In this document: positions 8,400-39,567 of the stretch, in pieces | How the letters are laid out: every line of letters starts with the position of its first letter | Numbering within the stretch: position 1 is the stretch's first letter | From: Flavihumibacter fluminis | GTDB lineage: Bacteria; Bacteroidota; Bacteroidia; Chitinophagales; Chitinophagaceae | Assembly (NCBI RefSeq): GCF_021491375.1 | Contig: NZ_JAKEVY010000002.1 | Coordinates: 992,001-1,056,000 of the forward strand | DNA: 64,000 bases | Direction of reading: 5' to 3' | Notes under the pieces: generated by a model | Database searches by the model: none | What the model was told of the DNA's origin: nothing | What the model saw: the letters and a program-made list of their open reading frames with translations, nothing else | Made by a program: the position numbers and the translations under genes

Positions 8400-10556
8400 A
8401 TGCGGTGTTTACCTTTTTTTCTGTTGATGTTATCACTCCATGCAGGTTCCCAGGTTGTACCGGCAAAGGATTGGTTGCTGCAGCCGGAGTCCTTTGTCGC
8501 CAGTGTAAAAACCAGTAAGGATGGGAAAGACCTTGAATTAAGCAATGGACTAATCAGCCGGCAATTTCGCCTGCAACCTAACCTGGTTTGTTATAGTTAT
8601 ACCAATCTGTCCAATGGAAGACAATTATTACGTTCCATCCGGGAGGAGGCACGCATTACTATAAATGGTAAAACCTATAAAATTGGCGGATTAAAAGTGC
8701 CGGATGAGAAAGCCTATTTTTTGCCTGAATGGCTGGATGGGCTGGCTGCTACAGACAGCAGCTTTCAATACCAGGAGCACCGGATAGAAGAGATAAAGCC
8801 TGTTCTCAACTGGAAAACCAGAGGCTGGGCATCCGGTGCGATACCCGCTACGGGAAAGAAACTGATCTTCAGGTATCGGTCGCCGTTAGCTGAACTGAAA
8901 GGGCTTGAAATCCTGGTAAATTATGAACTGTACAGCGGCCTGCCATTGGTTAGCAAATCGCTCCAGGTAATTAATAACAGCTCACGAAGCTTGCTCATTG
9001 ACAGCCTGGTGCATGAAGTGCTGGCGATGGTGGAAGAGGAGAGTGCAGTGATAGGAAGTCCTGAGCAGATGAAAAAACCAACGGGCATTTATTTTGAAAC
9101 GAATTATGCATTTAACAATGCGATGCGGTACACATTAAGTGATCAAACCCTGCATTGGAAAACGGATCCGGGATATACTTCGCAGGTAAATTATAATTAT
9201 GAAACACCCTGTTTGCTGGAGATCTATCCCGATCATGGTCCGGGTGTACAATTACATCCCGCCGACACGCTTCAGTCTGTAAAAACCTATGAACTTGCCC
9301 AGGATAATGCAGACCGGGAACGAAATGGCCTGGCTATCCGGAAAATGTATCGCACCATTGCTCCCTGGGTTACAGCCAACCCGATATTTATGCACCTGGT
9401 AAGCAAGAATGATGAAGAAGTAAAAACGGCTGTGGACCAGTGTGCAGCAACCGGATATGAGGCATTGATCCTGAGCTTTGGCAGTCACTGTAATATGGAA
9501 GATACGAGTGCCGAAAATATCAAAAAATGGAAGGAACTGGCTGATTATGCACACAGCAAAAAGGTCCTGATTGGTAGTTACTCCCTTTTTAGCTCACGCA
9601 GGATCAATGATGAGGAAGATGTGATCAACCCTAAAACCGGTAAACCCGGTGGCACCATGTTTGGCAATGCACCCTGTTTGGGAAGCCGGTGGGGACTGGA
9701 TTATATTCAGAAGTTAAAAACCTTTATGAGCCAAACGGGATTTGATCTGTTTGAGAATGATGGTCCTTATCCGGGTGATCGCTGTGCATCCACCAAACAT
9801 CCCGGGCATACCGGGCTGGATGATTCACAATGGAAACAAATGGAATTGCAAAAAAGCCTGTATCGGTGGTGTAATGAAAATGGGATTTATGTAAATGCGC
9901 CTGATTGGTATTTCCTGGATGGTACACATAAGATCGCAATTGGTTACAGGGAAGTGAATTTTTCTTTGTCGCGCGAGCAACAGAAAATCCTCAACAGGCA
10001 AAATATTTATGATGGCACTTGGGAAAAAACGCCCTCCATGGGATGGGGTTTTGTTCCCCTGATAAAATACCAGGGAGGCGGACCGGAAGCCATCCTGGAG
10101 CCACTTTCAGAGCATTTGAAAGACTATGAGCAACTGATGATGCAGTATTATGGTGCAGGGGTACAGGCCTGTTATCGCGGGCCACGTCTCTATGATACAG
10201 AAACAACCAAAGCAACTGTAATCAAAGTAATCAGTTGGTATAAGAAGTACAGGGAAATTCTGAATGCCGATGTGATTCATTTGAGGCGGGCTGATGGGAG
10301 AGATTGGGATGGAATCCTGCATGTTGATCCCAGACTTCCTGTTAAAGGATTGGCGATGTTATACAATCCGACCGGGAAGCCGATTACGCGTACCATTCAG
10401 CTGCCCTTGTATTATACAGGTTTGCAGCAATCAGTTGTACTAACATGGGCGGATAACCGAAAACAAACCGTTGCGCTCAACCGCGATTTTAATGCCACTA
10501 TTACAGTAACGATTCCTGCAAATGGGTATACCTGGATGACGGTTAGCAAACCATAA
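8400..10556 (+). CDS. Secreted glycoside-hydrolase-like protein, alpha-galactosidase-like
   Basis: Exported protein of 718 residues; MRCLPFFLLMLSLHAGSQVV is a signal peptide. The first 320 residues look like a beta-sandwich (super-sandwich type). A central (beta/alpha)8-like part follows, with ATGYEALILSFGSH, VLIGSYSLFSSRR, GFDLFENDGPYPGD and NGIYVNAPDWYFLDG. A C-terminal beta domain ends the protein. The order resembles clan GH-D enzymes (GH27/GH36), where the nucleophile is an Asp at a strand end; the Asp in LFENDGPYPG is the obvious candidate. I cannot assign a GH family. The substrate is presumably an alpha-linked sugar. It stands 25 kb from no other glycan gene except the susCD/GH92 locus 1.5 kb downstream. 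Confidence 0.65.
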   Translation: MRCLPFFLLMLSLHAGSQVVPAKDWLLQPESFVASVKTSKDGKDLELSNGLISRQFRLQPNLVCYSYTNLSNGRQLLRSIREEARITINGKTYKIGGLKVPDEKAYFLPEWLDGLAATDSSFQYQEHRIEEIKPVLNWKTRGWASGAIPATGKKLIFRYRSPLAELKGLEILVNYELYSGLPLVSKSLQVINNSSRSLLIDSLVHEVLAMVEEESAVIGSPEQMKKPTGIYFETNYAFNNAMRYTLSDQTLHWKTDPGYTSQVNYNYETPCLLEIYPDHGPGVQLHPADTLQSVKTYELAQDNADRERNGLAIRKMYRTIAPWVTANPIFMHLVSKNDEEVKTAVDQCAATGYEALILSFGSHCNMEDTSAENIKKWKELADYAHSKKVLIGSYSLFSSRRINDEEDVINPKTGKPGGTMFGNAPCLGSRWGLDYIQKLKTFMSQTGFDLFENDGPYPGDRCASTKHPGHTGLDDSQWKQMELQKSLYRWCNENGIYVNAPDWYFLDGTHKIAIGYREVNFSLSREQQKILNRQNIYDGTWEKTPSMGWGFVPLIKYQGGGPEAILEPLSEHLKDYEQLMMQYYGAGVQACYRGPRLYDTETTKATVIKVISWYKKYREILNADVIHLRRADGRDWDGILHVDPRLPVKGLAMLYNPTGKPITRTIQLPLYYTGLQQSVVLTWADNRKQTVALNRDFNATITVTIPANGYTWMTVSKP

Positions 10557-10560
10557 ATAA

Positions 10561-10568
10561 TATATTTG
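10561..10568 (+). promoter_or_regulatory. Promoter -7 box TATATTTG for the 2-hydroxyacid dehydrogenase
   Basis: Exact match to the Bacteroidota -7 consensus TAnnTTTG, four bases after the preceding stop codon and 18 bases before the next ATG. No TTTG is seen at the -33 position. It suggests the dehydrogenase has its own promoter with a very short leader. Confidence 0.5.
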
Positions 10569-10586
10569 GTGTACAAATAGGGAAAG

Positions 10587-11546
10587 ATGAAAATCGTTGT
10601 ACTGGATGGTTATACATTGAATCCGGGTGACCTTAGCTGGAAGGGCCTGGAAGCCCAGGGCACACTGATTGTTTATGACCGAACAGCACCTGATCAGGTA
10701 GTGGAGCGGGCAAAAGAAGCCACGATTGTACTAACGAATAAAACAGCCCTAACGGCGGATCAACTAGCGGAGTTACCCGAACTGAAATTCATCAGTGTAC
10801 TGGCAACAGGATTTAATATAATAGATATAGAGGCAACTAAACAATTAGGCATCACCGTTAGTAATGTTCCGGGCTATAGCAGTTATTCCGTGGTTCAGTT
10901 GTGTTTTGCCTTATTGTTTGAATTAACACATCGTGTACAGCAGCACAGTGATGCGGTGCACCAGGGACAATGGGTTAACGCTCCCGATTTTTCTTTCTGG
11001 CAACAACCTCTGGTGGAGTTGGCAGGAAAAAAAATGGGATTAATCGGATTGGGTGATATCGGTCAAAAAATGACGGATATGGCATTAGCGCTGGGCATGG
11101 AAGTGCTGGCTCACAGTCGAACCCGAAAAGGAAGACTGGAATCTCAACGTTTCAAATGGGTAGAGCTGGATGAATTGTTCCGTGAGGCAGATGTGGTGAG
11201 TTTGCATTGTCCGTTAACACCGCAAACAAAAGACATAATCAATGCAGCCAGGTTGCGTCAGATGAAGCAGACATCCTACCTATTAAATACAGCCAGGGGA
11301 CCATTGATTGTGGAAGCCGACCTGGCGCAGGCATTGAATGAAGGATGGATAGCAGGAGCCGGACTGGATGTGTTGAGTGTTGAACCACCTTCCGCAGACA
11401 ATCCTTTATTAACCGCCAAAAATTGCCTGATCACTCCGCATATTGCCTGGGCTTCCGTCGAAGCACGCACACGCCTGCTTGAGGAAACCATCGCAAACGT
11501 AAAGGCTTTCATTGCGGGTAAACCAAGAAATGTTATCGGACTGTAA
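10587..11546 (+). CDS. D-2-hydroxyacid dehydrogenase (glycerate dehydrogenase/hydroxypyruvate reductase-like)
   Basis: NAD(P)-dependent D-isomer-specific 2-hydroxyacid dehydrogenase, 319 residues, cytosolic. The Rossmann motif is MGLIGLGDIGQKM near residue 150. The catalytic Arg is in LLNTARGPLIVEADL, the Glu in LDVLSVEPPSADNPLL and the His in LITPHIAWAS, so the active site is complete. The N-terminus (MKIVVLDGYTLNPGDLSW) resembles glycerate dehydrogenase/hydroxypyruvate reductase more than lactate or phosphoglycerate dehydrogenases, which suggests hydroxypyruvate or glyoxylate reduction. A heptamer repeat array begins directly after its stop codon. Confidence 0.88.
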   Translation: MKIVVLDGYTLNPGDLSWKGLEAQGTLIVYDRTAPDQVVERAKEATIVLTNKTALTADQLAELPELKFISVLATGFNIIDIEATKQLGITVSNVPGYSSYSVVQLCFALLFELTHRVQQHSDAVHQGQWVNAPDFSFWQQPLVELAGKKMGLIGLGDIGQKMTDMALALGMEVLAHSRTRKGRLESQRFKWVELDELFREADVVSLHCPLTPQTKDIINAARLRQMKQTSYLLNTARGPLIVEADLAQALNEGWIAGAGLDVLSVEPPSADNPLLTAKNCLITPHIAWASVEARTRLLEETIANVKAFIAGKPRNVIGL

Positions 11547-11549
11547 TTT

Positions 11550-11601
11550 TCACCTTTCACCTTTCACTTCTTTTCACATCTCACGTCTCACGTCTCACTT
11601 C
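11550..11601. repeat. Heptamer tandem array, TCACNNN type
   Basis: Seven units of TCACNNN (two TCACCTT, TCACTTC, a 3-base slip, TCACATC, two TCACGTC, TCACTTC). It fills the gap between the dehydrogenase stop and the dodecin gene; the last unit supplies the final codons and TGA stop of dodecin. Complementary in sequence to the array at 16455-16496. Confidence 0.85.
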
Positions 11602-11798
11602 TCTATTTCAAAGCTCAACTTAACCGTCACACGATACGCGGTTATCTTACCATTTTCAACTGTGGCACTCATGTCCTGGATATAAACGGAACGGATATTA
11701 TGCAGGCTTTTGGAAGCTTCGGTAACAGCCTGCTGGGCGGCATCTTCCCAACTTTTTGTGGAGTTGGCCATCAATTCCAACACTTTTACAACTGACAT
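11595..11798 (-). CDS. Dodecin family flavin-binding protein
   Basis: Small protein of 67 residues with the dodecin fold (beta-alpha-beta-beta). SVVKVLELMANSTKSWEDAA includes the Trp that stacks on flavin in dodecins, and the last strand is YRVTVKLSFEIE. Dodecins form hollow dodecamers that store or buffer flavins, in the cytosol. Size and motif order match the family well. It converges on the 2-hydroxyacid dehydrogenase; its last codons GAG AAG TGA are made of heptamer repeat sequence. A TAACTTTA box about 40 bases before the start could be its -7 element. Confidence 0.9.
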   Translation of the reverse strand: MSVVKVLELMANSTKSWEDAAQQAVTEASKSLHNIRSVYIQDMSATVENGKITAYRVTVKLSFEIEK

Positions 11799-11903
11799 AG
11801 AATTTGTTTTAATGGTGAGTGAATGGAATGCCTTATAAAGTTAAACTTCTTCCATGAATGTTTAATCATCTAGTTTACGTGATACATCCTGAAAAATAAC
11901 CAC

Positions 11904-11947
11904 TCAACACATGTTAAAAGTGTTCCTGCAACGCAATGGTAATTTTG
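11904..11947 (+). promoter_or_regulatory. susC promoter: Crp/Fnr-type palindrome plus TAATTTTG box
   Basis: TAATTTTG at 11940-11947 matches the -7 consensus exactly. No TTTG lies at -33; instead a palindrome TCAACACATGTTAA (11904-11917) is centred 29.5 bases before the TA of the box, where a class II activator would bind. The arms are TCAAC and GTTAA, close to the site beside the Crp/Fnr gene at 30 kb. This is a pattern inference without experimental support. Confidence 0.55.
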
Positions 11948-12001
11948 ATTGTCTCTGCCTTCACGAAAAGAAGAGTAAACATTTAACGAAAAAACAGCAT
12001 T

Positions 12002-14998
12002 ATGAGGAAATTTATCTTGTACTTAACGGTTTTGATTTCGTTGAGTACAACCGCAGCTGCACAAAAAGCTGTTACGGGTAAAGTGGTGGATGAAAAGGAT
12101 GGAAGTCCAGTTGTAGGAGCTTCCATTCGGGTAAAAAATGGGGCCATTCTGGGCACAACCAATGAGCAGGGAGGATTCTCGGTTTCTGCTCCAGACAATG
12201 CACGTGCATTGGTATTTACCTATGTTGGATACGATGAAATAGAAGTAGCAATCACCGGAAATGAACTGCTGGTTAATATGAAACAGGCCAGCCGTTCCTT
12301 AAATGAAGTGGTGGTAACAGGATATGCAACCCGTACACGTCGCGCCAATACAGGTTCTGTATCTGTAGTGTCAATTGATGATATCCGGACACAGCCGAAT
12401 GCTTCTTTTGATCAGATGTTACAGGGACAGGCACCTGGTATCAACGTAAAAACAGGATCCGGGCAACCGGGTAGAAATGCGGATGTAATCATCCGTGGTA
12501 AAGGATCCATCAATGGATCCAATGCGCCTTTGTATATTCTGGACGGAGTTGAAATTCGTGCGGGTGATTTCAGCACCATGAACCAAAATGATTTTGAGTC
12601 TGTAACCATTTTGAAAGATGCAGCTTCTACTGCTATTTATGGATCACGTGGTGCTAATGGGGTAATTGTGATTACAACCAAAAAGGGAAGAGCGGGACGT
12701 ATGCGTCTTAGCTATGATGGCCAGATCGGTACGGCAAGACTTCCAGAGAATCAGTTAAAACTAATGAATACCCAGGAAAAACTGGATTTCGAAATGAATA
12801 TTGCCGGTAACCCCTGGGGCTGGTCGGCTGCAGATGTGGAAGAGCTTAGTAAGGTCAATACCAATTGGAACGATCATGTTTTCCGCAATGCGGGTATGCA
12901 ATCACACCAGATTTCTGCTTCAGGTGGTTCCGATAAAACCACATTTTATACTTCACTAGGTTATTACGATGAAGAAGGAATCACGATTGGAACCGGAATC
13001 AAAAAATACAATGGCCGGATCAACATCGCACATACTGATAATAACCTGAAAATTGGTGCCAATATGGCCGGCGGCTGGTCAAGTTATACAGGTACTTTTG
13101 AAGGAGATCAGAGTATTGGTTCTCCGCTGAATACTGTAATCTGGGCCTTGCCTTATGAGCGTCCCTACAATGCGGATGGTTCTTATGGAGAGTCCGTTCA
13201 GTTCCCTTTCTGGATTAATCCGGCTGAAGACCTGATTGAAAACCCTAATCGCAGCTGGCAGTTAAAAGGTTCAGGAAATATTTACCTGGAATACAAATTA
13301 CCCTGGGTGAAGAACCTGACCTATCGTATCAATGCTGGTGGCGATTATTCTCAATTGGAAGGATTTAGTATCATCAAAAATGGTACGCAGTCGGCTCGTC
13401 AGAATGAAGCATTTGGTCAGGATTTCCGCCGGAATGGTGAAATCGCCAGAAGCCTGGACAGACGTTTCCGGTATACTATAACCAACAGTTTGAATTATAA
13501 AACCGATCTGGATCAGGATGGTGATCATAATTTGTCAGTATCGCTGTTTACGGAGTTTGTAAAAAACACATCCCGTTCATTCAATTATACAGCTTATGGC
13601 TTACTGCTGCCGTTTGAGAATGAAGCAGGGTTGGTACCTGGAACTGTTGACAATGGATTCATTCCGGTTGTAGGTGGTGGATTTCCGGAGAACAATGCCC
13701 TGATGTCTTATTTCGGATCAGTGGATTATGCGTATAAGGGTCGTTATTTTCTGACCTTGACAGGAAGAACCGATGGTTCATCCAAATTGAGCCCGGAGAA
13801 CCGCTGGACACAATACGGATCAGTAGGTGCGAGCTGGATTGTGAGCGATGAAGATTTTTTCAAGTTCAATGCAATGAATTTCCTCAAACTCAAAGCGAGT
13901 TACGGATCTGTGGGTAACCAGAATGGTATTGGCGATTTCCCTTATCTGCAACAATATGGAAGAGGTAGTTATGGTGGTCGCGGTTCCCTGAGTGTAAATC
14001 GTTTGGGAAATAACCTGCTGACCTGGGAGATCAGAAGCACACTTAACATAGGTGCTGATATGGAATTCTTTCAATCGCGGGTGCGGGCATCTGTTGAATG
14101 GTATAACAGCTTAACCAAGGGATTGTATTTCTCTCCCTTTGTTCCAAGTACCAGTGGAGGAAATGGAACCTTACTGAGCAACAATGGTAGCATGCAGAAC
14201 CGTGGTATTGAAGCTTCCATTGGTGTGAAGATTATCAATAAGCGGAATTTCAAATGGTCAATTGATGCGAACTATGCGTATAATAAAAATACGATTAAGT
14301 CGCTCCCGGATGGCCAGGATTTCCAATTGTACAAGAGCTTCCAGGCACTCCAGGTAGGTAAACCTTTCAACAGTTTTTACCTGGTACGGTATGCAGGTGT
14401 GAATCCGGCGAATGGAAATTCACAGTACTATAAAGCCGATGGAAAAACAATTACAGAGCAGTATGATGCAAATGACCTGGTGGTGTTGGGAACAAGTGAT
14501 GCTCCGCACAATGCTGGTTTAACTACAACGGTAAGTTATAAAGGGATCGAGTTTTCTGCCTTCGGTGTTTTATCTGCCGGAAACTACATCTATAACAATG
14601 CACGCCTGAATGTGGAATACAATGGTTATACCACTTCCGGTTTTGCAAGAAGTGGATTGACGGCCTGGACAACACCCGGACAAATCACCAATTTCCCCCG
14701 GATCAGTGAAACAACAGAGTCCAATACTACCCGCTTCCTGGAGAAAGGAGATTTCTTCCGGTTGAGGAATGTACAACTGGCCTATACCTTACCCGCAGAA
14801 GTGGTAAGTCGCCTTAAGATCCAGGGCTTCCGAATTTTTGTACAGGGTCAGAATCTGTATACCAAATTCAAGTTCCAGGGCTGGGATCCGGAAGTATCCA
14901 GTGTGAATGATGCAGATCCGAACTCCAATGCCTCGGTAAGTGGAGCACAGTATCCTTCTTTAAAGCGTGTAACCGTAGGCGTTAACCTTACCCTTTAA
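12002..14998 (+). CDS. SusC/RagA-type TonB-linked outer membrane protein
   Basis: TonB-dependent outer membrane transporter of the SusC/RagA family, 998 residues. A signal peptide (MRKFILYLTVLISLSTTAAA) is followed by a carboxypeptidase-regulatory-like domain (VTGKVVDEKDGSPVVGASIR), then the plug with NEVVVTGYATRT, ILDGVEIRAGDF and YGSRGANGVIVITTKKGR, then a beta-barrel to the C-terminal Leu. Together with the SusD lipoprotein 18 bases downstream it should import an oligosaccharide or peptide across the outer membrane. The following GH92 mannosidase suggests a mannose-rich glycan substrate (inference). Promoter and a possible Crp/Fnr operator lie at 11904-11947. Confidence 0.95.
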   Translation: MRKFILYLTVLISLSTTAAAQKAVTGKVVDEKDGSPVVGASIRVKNGAILGTTNEQGGFSVSAPDNARALVFTYVGYDEIEVAITGNELLVNMKQASRSLNEVVVTGYATRTRRANTGSVSVVSIDDIRTQPNASFDQMLQGQAPGINVKTGSGQPGRNADVIIRGKGSINGSNAPLYILDGVEIRAGDFSTMNQNDFESVTILKDAASTAIYGSRGANGVIVITTKKGRAGRMRLSYDGQIGTARLPENQLKLMNTQEKLDFEMNIAGNPWGWSAADVEELSKVNTNWNDHVFRNAGMQSHQISASGGSDKTTFYTSLGYYDEEGITIGTGIKKYNGRINIAHTDNNLKIGANMAGGWSSYTGTFEGDQSIGSPLNTVIWALPYERPYNADGSYGESVQFPFWINPAEDLIENPNRSWQLKGSGNIYLEYKLPWVKNLTYRINAGGDYSQLEGFSIIKNGTQSARQNEAFGQDFRRNGEIARSLDRRFRYTITNSLNYKTDLDQDGDHNLSVSLFTEFVKNTSRSFNYTAYGLLLPFENEAGLVPGTVDNGFIPVVGGGFPENNALMSYFGSVDYAYKGRYFLTLTGRTDGSSKLSPENRWTQYGSVGASWIVSDEDFFKFNAMNFLKLKASYGSVGNQNGIGDFPYLQQYGRGSYGGRGSLSVNRLGNNLLTWEIRSTLNIGADMEFFQSRVRASVEWYNSLTKGLYFSPFVPSTSGGNGTLLSNNGSMQNRGIEASIGVKIINKRNFKWSIDANYAYNKNTIKSLPDGQDFQLYKSFQALQVGKPFNSFYLVRYAGVNPANGNSQYYKADGKTITEQYDANDLVVLGTSDAPHNAGLTTTVSYKGIEFSAFGVLSAGNYIYNNARLNVEYNGYTTSGFARSGLTAWTTPGQITNFPRISETTESNTTRFLEKGDFFRLRNVQLAYTLPAEVVSRLKIQGFRIFVQGQNLYTKFKFQGWDPEVSSVNDADPNSNASVSGAQYPSLKRVTVGVNLTL

Positions 14999-31416: not shown

Positions 31417-33114
31417 TCAATACTCCATTTCTTCCATCATCCGCATTGAATAAGTTGCCACACCTGCTTTGATGTAGAGTAAAATCACAGATCCCTTATC
31501 CGGCCGGAATATCCCCGAGGGCGAACATTCATTAGCTGTCTGAAATTTTTTGATGGCTGCGATAGTTCCTGAACCACATATTCCATCAACCAGAATTCCG
31601 GGTGTACCTCCCTCTGCTGCTGAAATCTGACTTAACAACTGTTGAATCAGTCTGACATCAGCAGCTTGATTACTGCCACCGGACCCAACCGATTGCTGGA
31701 TCCTCTTATTGGTGGTTTCATCTCCGCCGGAAACCGGTTCATTCCCGGCATCCGTATCCGGTTTGGGTGTCTCTTCCACTACTTCACTAATTACCTGGAA
31801 GGAGGGGGCACTTGCATACTGGTCGTCGGGGAAAGAAACTTTCCATCCATTCCAGCTGTAGTCAACCGTTGATCCGATTCTGAAATAGATTACCGGTGCA
31901 TTTTTTAACGCATCCCAGGCATAGGATTTCATGGTATAGGTATTGCCCGATTCCAATGCATAGCCATTTTGTTCGTCTGAATAACTGGCATAGAAATTAC
32001 TGCTGTTCCTCCTGCTTTCGTGATTGGCTGCATCAAACAATTGATTGTCGGTCGCAAATTCAACATAGTATTGAGGATTCCCAGCCTTATCCACCTGGAA
32101 ACTTGGTGGCATACTGGCAGCATTCCAACTGGCCGGCGCCTGCATGGAGGGTAAGGCGGATGGGGTTGCGTTTGTTGAAGTGCCACTGCCTGTACCTACA
32201 ATACAGAAGGGACGCTGTGCTTCAAAAGGAGCAATATTACTGCCAAGTGTCATGTAGTTGGGAGTTTGATCTGCTGGCATATCTGCAATAATGGTATCAT
32301 AAAATGTTTTGTAATGGCCTGTAAAGGCACCATTGTTCCAAACTTCCAGCAGCCTTCCTGTGAATACGCCATTGGTAGCGCCATCACCGCTTAACTGGTT
32401 GTCCTGGCACCCGGAAATATAAATTAGAGAAGCTGGAAATTCATTGGCTGCTTTTGCATTACGGGTCAAAAACTGTATGTTCTGGTAGAGGGTTTTATTC
32501 TTCACATAGTTCTGCAGACTCGCAGCAATCGGTATGCTTTTCCTGGTTGGTCCAACCAGCACAGACCGGGAAGGATGTTTTTCGAGTTGGCGATTGAAAA
32601 TTTCTATGTCCGATTCGGTGAAGGTTTTTCGCAAGGATCGTTTACCCGGATTTTTATCATGCATGAAATTCAATAATAACATACGTACCATGGAGCCACT
32701 ATGACAACTGTCGGACGTCACAAAAATCCGGACACCTGCCGCAAATTTTTTCCAGCAGCTGAATAACTCATTGTCAATTAATTGCCGGTCGTACAAAACC
32801 CATGTTTCATTCATCCCATCTTCTTCTTCGCCGGTTTCATCCGGCACCTGACTACCATGACCAGAATAGGTCAACAGGAAAATATCTCCACTGCAGAGTT
32901 GCGAAGATGCTTCGTTTATTTTTTGCAATACATTCATGGCAGTTGCCTGGCCGTCAAGCAATTGATCCGTTGTACTGAACCCGGCTTGTTGCGCAATACT
33001 CTTCATGGAGTTGGCATCATTGATGCACCCCGCTAAGTCCGGAATGGTGTATCCGGGATACTGGCTGTTGTCCACCCGGTTGAGTCCGATGTGGAGGGAA
33101 ATTCCTCTTGACAT
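31417..33114 (-). CDS. Metacaspase-like (C14) protease with C-terminal peptidoglycan-binding-like domain
   Basis: Caspase-clan cysteine protease of 565 residues with no signal peptide. The p20-like domain has DLAGCINDANSMKSIAQQAG, the catalytic His86 in LTYSGHGSQVPD, and Cys137 in FVTSDSCHSGS, so the dyad is intact; the acidic stretch TGEEEDGMNETWVLYDRQLI is typical of metacaspases, which cut after Arg or Lys. Residues about 340-450 form an unassigned beta domain (SWNGWKVSFPDDQY). After a linker, residues about 490-550 match a PG_binding_1 fold (LIQQLLSQ, ILVDGICGSGTIAAIKKFQ). It is the last gene of a three-gene run, 11 bases after the 908-residue gene. Prokaryotic caspases often execute regulated death or cleave a partner; which applies here is unknown. 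Confidence 0.88.
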   Translation of the reverse strand: MSRGISLHIGLNRVDNSQYPGYTIPDLAGCINDANSMKSIAQQAGFSTTDQLLDGQATAMNVLQKINEASSQLCSGDIFLLTYSGHGSQVPDETGEEEDGMNETWVLYDRQLIDNELFSCWKKFAAGVRIFVTSDSCHSGSMVRMLLLNFMHDKNPGKRSLRKTFTESDIEIFNRQLEKHPSRSVLVGPTRKSIPIAASLQNYVKNKTLYQNIQFLTRNAKAANEFPASLIYISGCQDNQLSGDGATNGVFTGRLLEVWNNGAFTGHYKTFYDTIIADMPADQTPNYMTLGSNIAPFEAQRPFCIVGTGSGTSTNATPSALPSMQAPASWNAASMPPSFQVDKAGNPQYYVEFATDNQLFDAANHESRRNSSNFYASYSDEQNGYALESGNTYTMKSYAWDALKNAPVIYFRIGSTVDYSWNGWKVSFPDDQYASAPSFQVISEVVEETPKPDTDAGNEPVSGGDETTNKRIQQSVGSGGSNQAADVRLIQQLLSQISAAEGGTPGILVDGICGSGTIAAIKKFQTANECSPSGIFRPDKGSVILLYIKAGVATYSMRMMEEMEY

Positions 33115-33125
33115 AATTTGATTTT

Positions 33126-35852
33126 TTAAAGGTTGATTGATATGAAGTTTCCTTTTTCGCTCAGGTCCTGTTCTGAATAGTTGGTTGTTGGTAGCGTTTC
33201 TGTACTGTCGGTTTTGACAAGTTTGCTGATTTTATATTCAATGATTCGCTCCATCAGGAAATGGGTTACCGGCATTTGAATATATACTTCCTGGCTGCGT
33301 TCTTCTGCTGATAATTCTAATTTTTGCGCCTCCGTTTGTCCTTTTAGTTTAAAGCTTATTTCAATTCTTGCGAGGCCCGATTCTTTAAAATCCGCTGTGC
33401 AAATAAAAATCACCTGGCATTGCACGTCTTCTATGTATTGATTAATCTGTTCCAATTCTACAGGTACAGGATCTACCAGCACGTAATCCGCAATGAATCC
33501 CTGGTAATCCAGTTCAGGTACCGTTTGCTCAAACTCTTCGAAGGCATCCAGTTCTGCTATCAGTTCCAGTTCTTCCTCTTTTTCTGAGTCGAGCAGCCCG
33601 GTAATTCCTGAAAGCTGTAACCTGGATTCTGTTAAATTGGTTAGCTTCAACTTACCCTTACCATCATACGAAAACACACAATGCCCTTTGTTCCATTCTC
33701 CTCCGATATGCTGCAGACTTGGCATTATTCGGCTACTGTATTTTTCCTGTTCCGGCAGGTTAATGGTTAGCAGGCCGTTGATGGCATCCCGCTTAAGCAT
33801 TTCCAGTAGTATCAAAATAGAACTGATATCGGTTTCAATGGTCATTCGCAGGTATTCACCATATGGATAAATATTGGTTGTTGTGCCCGTCATTTGATCC
33901 ATCGATAATACTGTTTCACTTGTACCCATCGGGATTTCCGTCAGGTAATGGAGCTGAGGCAGATAGGGCGTCAGTTTCGCACAGGCCTTTTTTAAAAGAT
34001 GCCGTTGAACCAGGCTGATATCCGGAATTAAGGTAGCATCCAGCACCCATTTACTGGTTCCGGAAACGGCATCCAGTGTTGAATAGAGCAGGATCATTGG
34101 TTTAAGCAACTGCCTGCCGTTTTCTTCCACCGCCTGCCTTCCGATTACGTATTGGGTGGGAACAACAAGAAAATCATTGGGTACATTGGTCGACCGGTAA
34201 ACCTTATACTGATCAGATTCAAGGGAAGCAATCGGGGTATAGAGCACTGGGGATACTTCTCCCAGTTTATAGGCTTCCTTACATCCGATAGCTGTAAAAC
34301 CAGCTCCTGATTCCTCCTGGTAATAGGTTCCAAAATCAGTGCAGGGGAAATGCAGGTCAACTCCAGAGGATCGTACATAACTCTGGATTTTATACTGTAC
34401 TGCAGGTTCGATCAGTTGTGCCAACACTACAGGTTGAAGAAGGGTTTCGATTCTGCTATTCCAGGCCGGTTTCACTCCACGATTCAATTTCGTCAAGGAT
34501 AATTTTGTTCCAACTATTGAGTTTAATTGCAATAATTGCGGTTCCAGTTTTGAGTATCCTGAAAATGCCATTGCCACCTGCAACTTCAACTTTGGTTGGT
34601 TGCCGGAAATCGCTGCATAACACATTCGGATCGCATTGTTGAGTAAACGAAATACCAGTTGTGTTTGCCCATTTTCAAGCAATGTTATTTCGCCTGGAGA
34701 TAGTTGCAGGTTTACGGTTTCCTGTGCGTCATTTACATATGGAATCGTCAACAGGTAGCTGATTTGATCAAACTGAATGGCAGCAATGCTTTTTCCTGGA
34801 AATGCTGCTTCTGCTTTTGCTTTCAGCGATTCAGAAATGCCATGGTTCAATGTCACCTGGAGCGATCCTTCCAATACCGGTTTCCCATTGCTTTCTGTCA
34901 GTCCCGTATTCCGGAATATAAACCGAAAGGCAGCCTGTTCTGGTGGTGTTTGCAAGTTGGGTATCACCAATTGGGGTTCTGTCAGTACCAGTACTTCCTG
35001 TTGATTTCTCCGGTTCAACCAGTACTGGGATGACTCATCCGTTACGATAGGATAATCTTTAATTGTTTCAGCTCCGGAAATAGCAATGCTCCAGTTGTTC
35101 AGCAAATGCAGTTTGATCCTGTTATCATACTTTAATTGATCCTGTTTTTGAATGGCTGATATTGGTAGTGCTACAGTAGCTACCTGTGCAAAGGATGCAT
35201 TCAGGATTTTTCCTTTTTCCATCTTTCCTGATGCCGTGGTTTGAATAGCTCTTGTTTTATCACTTGTTTTTATTTGTTCAGGGATCAGCCGGTAATTGTT
35301 GTAAGGCGGATCAAAATATTTGAACTGTACCTGGTATTGATCAAATGCCCGGATCAACTCTTCCAGCAGTAGCTTGCTGTTTATCCTGTACTGATGCTGG
35401 CTGTCTGGAGCAACTACATCCGATACCAGGTGCAGGATTAGACCGGATTTTTTTTGTTGTATGGCCAATAACAACGCATCGGCAGCTTTGGCATCCAACA
35501 CACCTTGCAAACTGGTTGCTGTTCCGGAAAATGTTTTTTCCAGCAGCAGCCGATTGGTTGCACCTTCATTCAACAATAATTTTATTACTGTATTGGTTCG
35601 GATGAACCTTTCCTGTTCAGTAGTTTCCGGTAGTTGCAGGGACAGCCGGATTTGCAGTGTTGCCCGTTCAAGTTTCCTGTAAGTAGTTGGATCTTTATTG
35701 GGCAGGTATTGATCCTGGAAAAAAGTAAAAGCGTTGTTGCTGCCTATCAGACTTGGATAAATACTGATTCTGCCCAGGTCTTCTTCAAGGTATGGCCAAC
35801 CTGTACCATTTGGCAGGCGCATGGTTTTTTCCTGTAATAGTTCAGTAGACAT
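33126..35852 (-). CDS. Very large unrecognised protein, partner of the metacaspase
   Basis: A 908-residue protein I do not recognise. There is no signal peptide or membrane helix, so it should be cytosolic unless exported by a dedicated machine. It is rich in alternating beta-strand segments (LQVTLNHGISES, LTKLNRGVKPAWN, GHCVFSYDGKGKLKLTNLTE) with a more helical N-terminal third. Four Cys are scattered. The final 100 residues (ADFKESGLARIEISFKLKG ... ERIIEYKISKLVK) resemble in layout a segment near the end of the upstream 776-residue protein, so the two may share a beta module. Spacing is 18 bases from the upstream gene and 11 from the metacaspase gene: one operon. A protease substrate, scaffold or sensor for the metacaspase is possible but unproven. 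Confidence 0.6.
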   Translation of the reverse strand: MSTELLQEKTMRLPNGTGWPYLEEDLGRISIYPSLIGSNNAFTFFQDQYLPNKDPTTYRKLERATLQIRLSLQLPETTEQERFIRTNTVIKLLLNEGATNRLLLEKTFSGTATSLQGVLDAKAADALLLAIQQKKSGLILHLVSDVVAPDSQHQYRINSKLLLEELIRAFDQYQVQFKYFDPPYNNYRLIPEQIKTSDKTRAIQTTASGKMEKGKILNASFAQVATVALPISAIQKQDQLKYDNRIKLHLLNNWSIAISGAETIKDYPIVTDESSQYWLNRRNQQEVLVLTEPQLVIPNLQTPPEQAAFRFIFRNTGLTESNGKPVLEGSLQVTLNHGISESLKAKAEAAFPGKSIAAIQFDQISYLLTIPYVNDAQETVNLQLSPGEITLLENGQTQLVFRLLNNAIRMCYAAISGNQPKLKLQVAMAFSGYSKLEPQLLQLNSIVGTKLSLTKLNRGVKPAWNSRIETLLQPVVLAQLIEPAVQYKIQSYVRSSGVDLHFPCTDFGTYYQEESGAGFTAIGCKEAYKLGEVSPVLYTPIASLESDQYKVYRSTNVPNDFLVVPTQYVIGRQAVEENGRQLLKPMILLYSTLDAVSGTSKWVLDATLIPDISLVQRHLLKKACAKLTPYLPQLHYLTEIPMGTSETVLSMDQMTGTTTNIYPYGEYLRMTIETDISSILILLEMLKRDAINGLLTINLPEQEKYSSRIMPSLQHIGGEWNKGHCVFSYDGKGKLKLTNLTESRLQLSGITGLLDSEKEEELELIAELDAFEEFEQTVPELDYQGFIADYVLVDPVPVELEQINQYIEDVQCQVIFICTADFKESGLARIEISFKLKGQTEAQKLELSAEERSQEVYIQMPVTHFLMERIIEYKISKLVKTDSTETLPTTNYSEQDLSEKGNFISINL

Positions 35853-35870
35853 GGCAACAACGCTTTAGGG

Positions 35871-38201
35871 TTAAACTTGTTTCCATCCACCATTTTCACT
35901 CACCTCCCGTTGAACAATCTTTCTGGACAGTGGTGTTTTACTGCCGGATGGTGGCTGGTGAATTCTTCCTCCTTCTTCTACGGAATAGGTTCCCCTGATT
36001 GGTTCAGCCGGTTGGCTTATTTCGCGGGTAGTTACTGAAACAGGCGGCTGCAGGATGATTTCACGCGCTTTGGATTGGATATCACGTTTGATTACAACAC
36101 CTTCATCTTCGGTGGATGGTACACTGATGGTAAGCGGTCCGTTTCCAATCATGTTTACCCATGGACCTGTCCATTCCATTCCTTTGGTGAATAAACTTCC
36201 TTTGACGATGACCCTTACCTGGTACTTGAAGAATGAGCGGATGGTAGCATCGGAACTGAATACCGACCAAAACCTGGGTGTTTCCTGGTCAAGATGGTTC
36301 CAGCTAAATTTCTGGGGTGGAAAGCGGGTAAGATCAGCACCGTTTTCATCTATTGCCTGGAAGGTTACTTCAACCAGTTGTTTGTTGTCTTCCAGTGCCA
36401 CATTTAATCCAAGTGGTCCTACCCGGATTCGACCTGCTTCATCTGCTCTCACTTCCAATGTTACATCATTCATCAGGCTTCCGTTTTCTCCCGGATCCAG
36501 TACAATTTCATTGTCTTCAATTTGTACCCGCACAAAGGGGTTGGCAATTGGATCCGGCGGTTCCAGCATATGAACTTTCCGCCTGATAAAGGTTTTATCA
36601 GGTGTCCAGTTGGCTGGAGCATTGCTTACATCGGCCGCAGCTTTCTGTGTGGTTTCAACTTTCCAGGTGTCGGTAGGGGAGGAACTGCTGTCAAAATAAT
36701 GGCCTACCCAGTTGATCTCACCGGAGGTGTTGGGATATCCAACTTCAACGGATACAAAGGAGACGGGTTCTCCAGCCCAATTGTTGGCAGGTTGTGGCCA
36801 GTTTACCACCGGCTTGATGATACGTGCCAGTTTTCTTGGCCAATCATCCATATAAACTGTCACGAAATATTTCTTCTCTGCGTCCGGATCTTTTTTCATT
36901 TCCTCAAAAGCTCCTTCCAGGTTGGAAGAAATGACATGATCCTGCAGATAAGCCAATTGCCTTTTCTCATGATAATTGAGATTGAGCTTGGTGCTGTCGC
37001 GACGATATTTCAAAGCTACACCACCACCCCAAAGTCCGAACAATCCGCCTGATGAACTGGCTTCAGCAGCCTGCACAGTAGGTTGTGGCGGATCAAAGAT
37101 GATGCCTTTCGCCTGTTCCATAAATTTTTGCGAAATGAGATCGGTTTTTTTGTCAACATAGTCCTGGATTTTTTCCGCTCCGGGAATGGTCGGATCCACT
37201 TTTACATCCACTTCAATGCCACCGCTGATGCGCATGTTGTTAAACTCTGCTTTGATATCTGCAGAGAACCATAAGTACTTGCCTTTTGCATTGGCGGAGA
37301 AATGTTCAAAAATGCGGTCCCAGTTTCCTTTTATGGTGATCTCAATAATAGGTACCCAGAATTTCACTTTCATAGCCTGGCATACCCGCACAGGTGTGTA
37401 TGCCATTTTGAATGCCTGGTAGAGAATACTGGCAGGATAGACACCCATCAATCCGGAGTAGGCATTTTGTCCCATTGGATCAATGGATCCATTGCCCTGT
37501 CCCTGCATATTGAAATACCAGGGGTCGAGGTTGCCATCCCGAACATTTCGTTTGTCAAAAGAGCGGGTAGTAAATCCTTTTTCTGTTATAAAGCGTGGCA
37601 CTGGAACAGTTTCATAACGCAGTTGCCGGTTAGGAGCCGGCGGCCCGGCTGGTCCGGCAGGCGCACCCGGATTCACGGGTGTAGCCGGATTGGCAGGTGT
37701 TCCGGAAACGGGTTGTACTACAGATCCATCGGCATTGGGAGAGAGGTTGGAAATAGAGGTATGATTGGATGTGATTACCACCGGCCGGAAAATAGGTTTA
37801 ACCCGGGAGCGGATACCCCAGAAAAAATCAACTTTTCCCTGGTACATATTGATGATTTCCTGCTGCCCTTCCTCGAGAACATGGTATGGAGGTGCTGCGG
37901 TAGTAGTTACTCCTAATACACCACCTGCTACTTCTCTGCTTTCACCTTCTTCCAGTCCGATATTGCCTTCACTGGTTTGCTTTCCTGCAAAGCGCAACAT
38001 CAGGAACATCAGGTCTCCATCTTCCCGACCATTTTTGCGCGCAATATGAACATAGTTGGGTAGCCAGTAAAATACAGGTGGCTTGCCTTCATTTTGTAGT
38101 GCATCATTATTTACATCAGGATAATAGATGAGTTCGTACCCATCTTTGATGATAGGTTGAATCCCACCGGCCATGGTAGGACCCAAAGCGGTAGTTGCCA
38201 T
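35871..38201 (-). CDS. Very large unrecognised protein, first gene of the metacaspase operon
   Basis: A 776-residue protein without recognised family and without signal peptide. Residues about 165-195 are a Pro/Ala/Gly-rich linker (GTPANPATPVNPGAPAGPAG) separating an N-terminal domain from the rest. The middle (IRSRVKPIFRP, MKVKFWVPIIEITIKGNWDR, ISGGIEVDVKVDPTIPG) is beta-rich, followed by a Gly-rich GGLFGLWGGGVAL patch, which might touch a membrane. The C-terminal third has strand-rich repeats (RVQIEDNEIVLDPGENGSLM, KQLVEVTFQAID). The tail is basic and disordered. It heads the operon with the 908-residue protein and the metacaspase. Function unknown. Confidence 0.6.
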   Translation of the reverse strand: MATTALGPTMAGGIQPIIKDGYELIYYPDVNNDALQNEGKPPVFYWLPNYVHIARKNGREDGDLMFLMLRFAGKQTSEGNIGLEEGESREVAGGVLGVTTTAAPPYHVLEEGQQEIINMYQGKVDFFWGIRSRVKPIFRPVVITSNHTSISNLSPNADGSVVQPVSGTPANPATPVNPGAPAGPAGPPAPNRQLRYETVPVPRFITEKGFTTRSFDKRNVRDGNLDPWYFNMQGQGNGSIDPMGQNAYSGLMGVYPASILYQAFKMAYTPVRVCQAMKVKFWVPIIEITIKGNWDRIFEHFSANAKGKYLWFSADIKAEFNNMRISGGIEVDVKVDPTIPGAEKIQDYVDKKTDLISQKFMEQAKGIIFDPPQPTVQAAEASSSGGLFGLWGGGVALKYRRDSTKLNLNYHEKRQLAYLQDHVISSNLEGAFEEMKKDPDAEKKYFVTVYMDDWPRKLARIIKPVVNWPQPANNWAGEPVSFVSVEVGYPNTSGEINWVGHYFDSSSSPTDTWKVETTQKAAADVSNAPANWTPDKTFIRRKVHMLEPPDPIANPFVRVQIEDNEIVLDPGENGSLMNDVTLEVRADEAGRIRVGPLGLNVALEDNKQLVEVTFQAIDENGADLTRFPPQKFSWNHLDQETPRFWSVFSSDATIRSFFKYQVRVIVKGSLFTKGMEWTGPWVNMIGNGPLTISVPSTEDEGVVIKRDIQSKAREIILQPPVSVTTREISQPAEPIRGTYSVEEGGRIHQPPSGSKTPLSRKIVQREVSENGGWKQV

Positions 38202-38473: not shown

Positions 38474-38878
38474 CTATGTGCCGCTGCCTGAAATTTCCAG
38501 ATTTTCAGTTACGAAATAAAGCGTAAAAGGAGGAATTTCCCATTCTCCGGCAAAAAATCCTTCTGATTGATATTGACCAGAATAATTTATATCATAAGCT
38601 GGTTCATCATCAAATACTTCCATTTCTCCTGAAAGAGAATTTCTTAAACATAGATTTGGATATTGTTTTGTGAAAAAGATATGCTTGTTTTCTATGAATC
38701 CAAAGATATTTCCAGCACTTCTGAATAAATGTTTTGTTTCCTCATCTGTAATGGTCCCAGTTATTTCTATTCCATTCATTTTTAAAATCAGTTCAAACTG
38801 TACGGTTTTGCCATGCATTTCCGGTGTATATCCATCTCCATAAGTGAATGTTCCACTCCACTTTCCAGCAATATTCAT
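38474..38878 (-). CDS. Unrecognised small protein, lipocalin-like beta fold
   Basis: A 134-residue protein without signal peptide. It opens MNIAGKWSGTFTYGDGY, a G-x-W pattern seen at the start of lipocalin-like barrels, and continues with alternating strands (GKTVQFELILKMNGIEITGT, HIFFTKQYPNL, FFAGEWEIPPFTLYF). No family is certain. The DNA is visibly richer in A and T than the neighbours, as is the next gene 19 bases upstream, suggesting acquisition from elsewhere. Its size, solo domain and position beside the metacaspase block would fit an immunity or inhibitor protein, but this is guesswork. Confidence 0.55.
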   Translation of the reverse strand: MNIAGKWSGTFTYGDGYTPEMHGKTVQFELILKMNGIEITGTITDEETKHLFRSAGNIFGFIENKHIFFTKQYPNLCLRNSLSGEMEVFDDEPAYDINYSGQYQSEGFFAGEWEIPPFTLYFVTENLEISGSGT

Positions 38879-38897: not shown

Positions 38898-39404
38898 TTA
38901 TTCTAATGTTGACGACAGATAAATTGATCCATTCTTCCTTTTCTCAATAAAAGTCATTGTGCATTTGCTATGATCCTTTTCACTATTTTCAGTAAAATCG
39001 AAGCCAAAATGTATCCCTTTGGGAATAGAGAGAACTATGTAGCCTGGTTGAATGTATTTCTTCTCGAAATCCAGTTTTAACTTAAGCAGTGCCACTATAG
39101 TTTGTTTAAGTGAAATCTTTTTTTTATCAAAAAGCCACCAATCTGTAATTTTTATCTTTTTGCCACCATCTAATCTTTGTGTAACATAATCCGAGAATAT
39201 TGACTCCAGCCTGCTGTTCGAATCAAAATAAAACTCAAAATTTCCATATGTCCAGCATGATGAATCTTCCATGCTGTTATTTGAAAACCAATTTTCCGGC
39301 TTCAATCCTAAGTCTAATAATTCATTTTTGGAAGTTCCTAATTCGATTTTTCCAAAATCTCCTTTTTCAACCAGCTCTTTTAAATTCAATTTAATTTTTG
39401 CCAT
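38898..39404 (-). CDS. Unrecognised 168-residue AT-rich-island protein
   Basis: A 168-residue soluble protein I do not recognise. It begins MAKIKLNLKELVEKGDFGKI and has mixed alpha/beta character with aromatic-rich segments (DSSCWTYGNFEFYF, KGIHFGFDFTE). The layout (short N-terminal strand and helix, then a four-strand sheet) recalls immunity proteins of polymorphic toxin systems, without a specific match. One 60-base line of the gene (39061-39120) is 19/60 G+C, much lower than the surroundings. It starts 80 bases from the tRNA-Leu 3' end and precedes the 134-residue gene by 19 bases. Confidence 0.55.
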   Translation of the reverse strand: MAKIKLNLKELVEKGDFGKIELGTSKNELLDLGLKPENWFSNNSMEDSSCWTYGNFEFYFDSNSRLESIFSDYVTQRLDGGKKIKITDWWLFDKKKISLKQTIVALLKLKLDFEKKYIQPGYIVLSIPKGIHFGFDFTENSEKDHSKCTMTFIEKRKNGSIYLSSTLE

Positions 39405-39434: not shown

Positions 39435-39469
39435 CAAAAAACCCCTGATAGTTACACTATCAGGGGTTT
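39435..39469 (-). terminator. Intrinsic terminator of tRNA-Leu
   Basis: On the minus strand: stem ACCCCTGATAGT with ACTATCAGGGGT (39441-39452 and 39456-39467 on the plus strand), a 3-base loop, and six T (39440-39435). It ends the tRNA transcript before the 168-residue gene. Confidence 0.88.
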
Positions 39470-39483
39470 CCATTTTTAACTCG

Positions 39484-39567
39484 TGCCCAGAACAGGAATC
39501 GAACCTGCACTCCCTTGCGAGAACCAGATTTTGAGTCTAGCGCGTCTACCAATTCCGCCATCTGGGC
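39484..39567 (-). tRNA. tRNA-Leu (anticodon CAA)
   Basis: An 84-base cloverleaf on the minus strand. Acceptor stem GCCCAGA/TCTGGGC with discriminator A; D-arm GGCGGAATTGGTAGACGCGC; anticodon loop CTCAAAA giving anticodon CAA (codon UUG); long variable arm GTTCTCGCAAGGGAGT as in class II tRNAs; T-loop GGTTCGATTCC. CCA is not encoded. A terminator follows. Confidence 0.95.

Follow-up and report, generated by a model that had tools for sequence, protein, structure and literature searches.

In a window of 64,000 nucleotides from Flavihumibacter fluminis (contig NZ_JAKEVY010000002.1, positions 992,001 to 1,056,000; the coordinates in Table 1 are those of the window), three adjacent genes encode two large proteins, here called A and B, and a metacaspase, C. 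The three genes recur in the same order in other Flavihumibacter genomes and in another phylum, the metacaspase ends in a PG_binding_1 domain, and in distant relatives of this gene set the same domain is attached to a muramidase. Tentatively, we read A and B as a large scaffold or carrier and the product of the third gene as an exchangeable hydrolase directed to the cell wall.

The three open reading frames (ORFs) are intact, and their positions on the minus strand and the gaps of 18 and 11 bases between them agree with the first-pass annotation of this DNA. The scans for promoters (13 sites versus 17.6 in shuffled sequences) and terminators (9 sites versus 9.8) showed no excess over the shuffles, and co-transcription of A, B, and C is therefore suggested by the spacing alone.

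Protein C matched Peptidase_C14 (PF00656) with an E value of 1.4e-19 (71.2 bits; cut-off, 21.4), and all six trio caspases that we aligned exceeded this cut-off. The metacaspase had been described as intact on the basis of His86 and Cys137; both residues are invariant in the six sequences, and the catalytic region aligns with those of the solved metacaspases GSU0716 (PDB 3bij), Metacaspase-4, and Metacaspase-1, so that protease C looks catalytically intact. Its closest solved relative is GSU0716 of Geobacter sulfurreducens (phmmer E value, 1.8e-69), and the likeness spans both halves of the caspase domain, including the H and C motifs. However, 3bij has 285 residues, whereas C has an additional middle region, a PG_binding_1 domain, and the partners A and B. 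Among the plasmids searched, only the trio caspase of Deinococcus shares the middle region (the Deinococcus stretch, used as a query, matched only itself). The PG_binding_1 domain (PF01471; E value, 2.5e-5; 24.8 bits; cut-off, 23), which the first-pass annotation had overlooked, is present in all six trio caspases: four of the other five scored above the Pfam cut-off, and that of locus L007 scored 21.0 bits.

The combination has a precedent. The relevant passages of the survey PMC3501461 report that 11 metacaspases (1.6%) have a putative peptidoglycan-binding domain, mention an amidase gene in a metacaspase operon of G. sulfurreducens, which we infer to be the operon of GSU0716, and give 70 of 217 metacaspase operons as being of function not known. 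The metacaspases described there thus resemble C in joining a caspase domain to a putative peptidoglycan-binding domain and in having a wall enzyme in the operon. Large partners like A and B do not appear in those passages, but the 70 operons could include such genes. No paper on the trio itself was found in the literature, mostly by word searches that could miss papers using different terms.

A search of genome contigs with a profile of three aligned A sequences yielded six loci. At the four Flavihumibacter-type loci (L005 to L008), A, B, and C occur in order. In Allorhizocola (L009), A is followed by a partial second ORF that is cut by the contig end and was not recognized by the B profile, and Streptomyces sp. 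FH025 (L010) has tandem A genes (9986 to 12034 and 12047 to 13864, plus strand, separated by 12 bases) and no adjoining match to B or C. A plasmid of Deinococcus taeanensis carries A, B, and C in the order of the window; its homologue of A is 50.6% identical over the whole query, whereas B is 25.0% identical over 51% of the query and C is 39.5% identical over 95%. Upstream of A and on the opposite strand, Deinococcus has a large BTAD-domain regulator (L003:9629-11527, minus strand) and Allorhizocola, several ORFs away, a large LuxR/AAA regulator (L009:3743-6325, minus strand). Counting the window's own, A was present in 5 of the 15 genomes of Flavihumibacter, and a search with the single protein matched 2 of 195 genomes of the family (the window's own and genome G108). 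The trio is thus not restricted to this strain, and its conservation, which the first-pass annotation had wanted checked, extends to another phylum. The flanking genes are common to the window and Flavihumibacter cheonanensis (L005), and the neighbors at L006, L007, and L008 differ.

The five A-positive Flavihumibacter genomes contain six C14 genes, five of them in the trio, with open frames of 580 to 604 residues; the ten A-negative genomes contain six C14 genes, in four genomes, with frames of 294 to 1296 residues, none of trio size. C14 genes of trio size therefore strictly co-occur with A (in all five A-positive genomes and in none of the ten A-negative ones). Since some C14 gene was found in 62 of 147 genomes of the family, caspases as such are not rare. 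No match to A was found in phage records, and scans of viral contigs gave no relative of A, of B, or of one A-like protein from genome G298; a phage origin of the trio was rejected on these grounds. With caspase C alone as the query, four viral loci were obtained, and neither these nor plasmid loci of Palleronia, Rhodococcus, Rhizobium, and Annamia had a match to the A or B profile, so GSU0716-like caspases also exist without A and B. Two such caspases are encoded in IMG/VR contigs of 64.5 and 43.3 kb (L034 and L035; match at 10001) and are 40 to 41% identical to C over ~300 residues.

The ratios of nonsynonymous to synonymous substitution rates (dN/dS) relative to L005, the only comparison in which dS was unsaturated (0.31 to 0.37), were 0.028 for A, 0.148 for B, and 0.070 for C. 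Comparisons with L006 and L007 gave rough values (dS, 1.2 to 4.2) of 0.04 to 0.05, 0.07 to 0.12, and 0.03 to 0.07, respectively; dS was not computable for L008 and Deinococcus. B was the fastest evolving of the three in every comparison that gave a value, and its identity to the Deinococcus protein ranged from 11 to 32% per 100 residues. The low dN/dS relative to L005 and the gene order recurring in another phylum show that the trio is more than a chance arrangement.

Neither A nor B had a match in Pfam, NCBIfam, or PADLOC at an E value of ≤1; in PHROGs, A had no match and B matched one family at a nonsignificant 0.17. PDB sequence searches gave nothing convincing (best E value of 0.23 for A, no match for B, and none at an E value of ≤5 for profiles A6, A5, and A2). 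The large proteins did not prove to be known structural families. The view that the partners match nothing holds for the named families of the libraries searched, but it does not hold more widely, as A falls into a superfamily of paralogues and B has homologues. A profile of A detected distant relatives in 4 of 296 Bacteroidota genomes, its own included (all such phyletic counts cover Bacteroidota only). In G298, three A-like proteins stand in succession and two metacaspases end the run; profile-profile comparison (hhalign) of A with these three proteins gave a probability of 98.3 and an E value of 2.2e-14 over 533 columns. One of them, used as a tblastn query, revealed runs of homologues on plasmids of Pararhizobium and Paracoccus. 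Profile A9, made from 12 A-like proteins and built without A, matched the A of the window at an E value of 2e-16 (hmmsearch; frame residues 52 to 503, converted by hand to the numbers of Table 1). A9 had matches in 5 of 296 Bacteroidota genomes (own included) and, in the order to which G298 belongs, in 1 of 128, which was G298 itself. A further profile, run on 299 genomes from the family of G474, matched 6 of them, among these G474 itself; the five new genomes had E values of 4e-4 to 6e-8 in that search and of 3e-20 or better with A9 (best protein per locus). These profiles place A in an unnamed superfamily whose members occur as runs of paralogues in Bacteroidota and Alphaproteobacteria. Pfam scans of 37 and 33 operon proteins, tabulated as family counts, gave no named family for the A-superfamily proteins and returned enzymes, lectins, NTPases, and a few weak other domains.

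The homology of A to the Paracoccus and Pararhizobium plasmid runs and to G298 is thus at the profile level. G298 resembles the trio in having metacaspases at the end of the run, whereas all three have several paralogues in place of one A and one B. The Paracoccus run differs further in its enzymes: on the plasmid (L021:6730-30119; also L023), the run of five A-like proteins also includes phospholipase D-like and tyrosinase genes, and genes of the trypsin-like, EAD1, and STAND types come before it. Elsewhere, a single protein with a signal-like N terminus joins astacin to C70 (AvrRpt2-type papain-like) beside five A-like proteins (L062:309-1775, minus strand). In two flavobacterial genomes, related proteins of 362 and 361 residues (L059:5031-6119, minus strand, and L060:12185-13270, plus strand) end the A-like runs, as do small transmembrane (TM)-like proteins (189 and 175 residues); the 362-residue protein had no Pfam match.

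The B profile matched proteins of 717 and 715 residues that adjoin A in G474 and G393 (E values, 5.9e-10 and 4.1e-5). Comparison of B with A9 gave a probability of 1.6 (E value, 0.031), that of a group of 867- to 887-residue proteins with A9 gave 2.5 (0.019), and that of B with the same group gave 2.1 (0.023). These weak matches lie on a similar kind of segment, which is no more than suggestive. A mixed set including the flavobacterial B-like proteins matched B with a probability of 90 (E value, 1.4e-6), but, with a mixed set, this match does not settle whether A and B are kin.

After the A-B pair, G474 and G393 encode a protein with PG_binding_1 and Muramidase domains (in G474, with one gene for 220 residues in between), and no C14 gene was found in either genome at an E value of ≤1e-5. 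As PG_binding_1 is also present in all trio caspases, the module for wall binding is retained and the catalytic one varies, and it is mainly for this reason that we tentatively read the third gene product as wall directed. Fourteen A-superfamily loci were read on both sides, with the Flavihumibacter loci merged into one, the near-identical Paracoccus plasmids likewise merged, and Allorhizocola left out, as its contig breaks off within the second gene. Six of the 14 runs include a peptidase (window type, Deinococcus, G474 [papain-type], G298, Paracoccus [trypsin-like], and G719 [astacin plus C70]), and six include a gene for peptidoglycan binding or wall hydrolysis (window type, Deinococcus, G474, G393, G413, and G785; the Amidase_2 matches of G413 and G785, at 23.4 and 19.0 bits, do not reach the cut-off of 26). 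Nine of the 14 loci have one or the other, a count given without a background frequency. When a 12-residue hydropathy of at least 2.0 within the first 55 residues was used as a proxy for a signal peptide, the A-like proteins and their recognized partners agreed in status at 9 of 10 loci; no probability is attached to this agreement, because the loci are not independent.

Averaged over 19 residues, hydropathy peaks at 0.99 in A and at 1.20 in C; the peak of B, 1.60 at residue 216, is borderline. As had been stated before, A and B have no N-terminal signal and no clear TM helix, and all three proteins are predicted to be cytosolic. AlphaFold2 models of full-length A (7 sequences; predicted local distance difference test [pLDDT], 41.1; predicted template modeling score [pTM], 0.27) and of a 412-residue crop of Allorhizocola A (7 sequences; pLDDT, 39.2; pTM, 0.29) were unusable. 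The relatives suggest a structural or scaffold-like part alongside enzymes more than they suggest a sensor.

In the arrangement that we favor, A and B would bind each other and the enzyme and would act as the scaffold, and the third-gene enzyme, which in Flavihumibacter and Deinococcus is a metacaspase ending in a peptidoglycan-binding domain and in the two flavobacterial genomes a muramidase with the same domain, would act at the wall. Metacaspases cleave after Arg or Lys and depend on calcium; protease C would presumably cut after the same residues, and its sites may include the tail of A. Since A, B, and C have no signal peptides, the complex would have to arrive at the wall through lysis, through a non-Sec route, or from within in the course of programmed lysis. 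In a broader version, to which we give rather little weight, A and B could be subunits of a new, widely exchanged multisubunit machine, cytosolic or exported depending on the lineage, that brings an interchangeable hydrolase (metacaspase, papain, trypsin, astacin/C70, muramidase, or amidase) to bear on the envelope of its own cell (altruistic lysis) or of a neighbor (competition).

Several observations weigh against a scaffold with a wall-directed enzyme. The C of the window has no signal peptide, its contact with peptidoglycan is unproven, and PG_binding_1 may bind something other than peptidoglycan. The term scaffold is taken from size and paralogy, with no fold for A at the pLDDT values given above, and direct profile comparison of B with A found nothing (probability, 0.1; E value, 0.68). 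At 5 of the 14 loci (Streptomyces, Pararhizobium, G797, G620, and G790; labeled L010, L020, L058, L059, and L060), neither a peptidase nor a wall gene was recognized. The agreement in signal status also has its exceptions: in G785 (L061), the A-like protein (1.65) is below the cut-off and its amidase-like partner (2.38) above it; in G719 (L062), four of the five A-like proteins pass and one (1.87) does not; and the Paracoccus tyrosinase is below the cut-off and yet has, by eye, a twin-arginine translocation (Tat)-type signal, unlike its A-like neighbors. In addition, the exported A-like loci all come from one family. A scaffold with an exchangeable wall-directed hydrolase nevertheless seems to fit more of the data than a defense system does.

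Abortive defense or programmed death was what the first-pass annotation had proposed for the trio. A cytosolic A or B would sense a trigger and release the metacaspase, which would kill or disable the cell, A or B perhaps being the substrate. The predicted cytosolic location of the three proteins, a protease intact by its sequence, and the rapid evolution of B are in line with such a switch, and the patchy spread (5 of 15 genomes in the genus and 2 of 195 in the family), together with the plasmid copy, suits a mobile accessory system. The Paracoccus relative set, with its EAD1, trypsin, and STAND-type genes, provides the one link to conflict systems described in the part of PMC7159879 that deals with them. 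The same part describes a two-gene EACC1-caspase conflict system, which is like the trio in being a short operon with the caspase gene last (3') and with exchangeable partner domains, but the trio has no EACC1 gene and no TM-helix partner: a 5' neighbor with one TM helix is characteristic of EACC1, and A and B, with 776 and 908 residues, have no clear TM helix. On the NCBIfam model of EACC1-associated caspases, C scored 24.4 bits against a cut-off of 140, over residues 16 to 90 only, and assignment of the trio to an EACC1/EAD system was rejected. An association with a defense island, which the first-pass annotation had wanted checked, was not seen in a PADLOC scan of 35 of the 51 window ORFs of at least 90 residues. 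The scan, tabulated as family counts and not per protein, returned 11 families, none with more than two proteins and chiefly CRISPR-associated regulator models, a desaturase type, mad8, PDC-M05A, and the caspase model, to which C had a partial match (35.9 bits). We read these as single generic domains, with no complete system and no defense island. With only scattered components in the window, no PADLOC match for A or B, and no trace of A in phage records or of A and B in the viral contigs, the proposal fared poorly. Furthermore, the related operons are exported as well as cytosolic, with secreted astacin/C70 or amidase-like genes, which is ill suited to a cytosolic phage sensor. A defense role is thus possible, without positive support, and we regard it as unlikely.

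The tail of A bears on another explanation, in which the metacaspase is a maturation protease that trims A (at its basic tail) or B for assembly, like the processing proteases of large assemblies. The tail is indeed basic, as had been claimed (computed pI [isoelectric point], 9.98 for residues 703 to 776), and by composition apparently disordered, but it is poorly conserved and variable: of the last 76 positions of A, 14 are identical in Deinococcus and 4 in Allorhizocola. Long tails accompany caspase-linked A proteins and are nearly absent, by eye, from the two Streptomyces A proteins with no adjoining caspase; the tail is a possible site for protease C, and proteases of unrelated classes recur beside A-like runs. 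Against such trimming, hardly any cleavage motif in the tail is conserved across phyla, the wall hydrolases found in the same position cannot be maturases, and some A-like runs have no recognized protease (5 of the 14 have neither a protease nor a wall enzyme). We therefore hold maturation to be rather improbable. Still less probable is an ordinary housekeeping or stress process, such as protein quality control or envelope maintenance, with a coincidental wall-enzyme neighborhood: the missing background control for that neighborhood and the fairly common caspase genes of the family (62 of 147 genomes) would allow it, but the trio is absent from 10 of the 15 genus genomes, its caspase type strictly co-occurs with A, and the gene order is identical in another phylum.

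Table 1. Positions in the window of the trio genes and of the domains and residues discussed in the text
Feature	Position	Strand	Description
Gene A	35871-38201	minus	776 residues; first gene of the trio; from the ORF list
Gene B	33126-35852	minus	908 residues; second gene of the trio
Gene C	31417-33114	minus	565-residue metacaspase; third gene of the trio
Part of A matched by profile A9	36729-38084	minus	about residues 40-491
C-terminal tail of A	35874-36095	minus	residues 703-776; basic, poorly conserved
Peptidase_C14 domain of C	32260-33072	minus	residues 15-285; PF00656
His86 of C	32857-32859	minus	catalytic dyad (YSGH/DSCHSG contexts)
Cys137 of C	32704-32706	minus	catalytic dyad (YSGH/DSCHSG contexts)
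Middle region of C	31780-32127	minus	about residues 330-445; no named family
PG_binding_1 domain of C	31510-31665	minus	residues 484-535; PF01471

Upstream of gene A, at a distance of ~1.3 kb, lies a tRNA-Leu gene (39483 to 39567, minus strand) with a strong terminator-like hairpin beside it (39437 to 39471); tRNA genes are common integration sites. Between the tRNA gene and A are two small orphan ORFs on the minus strand (38474 to 38878, 134 residues, and 38898 to 39404, 168 residues), for which no significant family match was found in Pfam, NCBIfam, PADLOC, or PHROGs. A relative of the 168-residue product is also encoded upstream of A in L005.

The substrates and partners of bacterial metacaspases have long been an open question. 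With large partners that are fixed across phyla, substrate, activator, and localization become testable within a single small operon. Should the A superfamily prove to be a shared body that carries exchangeable enzymes, it would represent a new kind of assembly, one unnamed in the family libraries searched, and, if true, such a body would explain many orphan genes encoding proteins of 600 to 900 residues.

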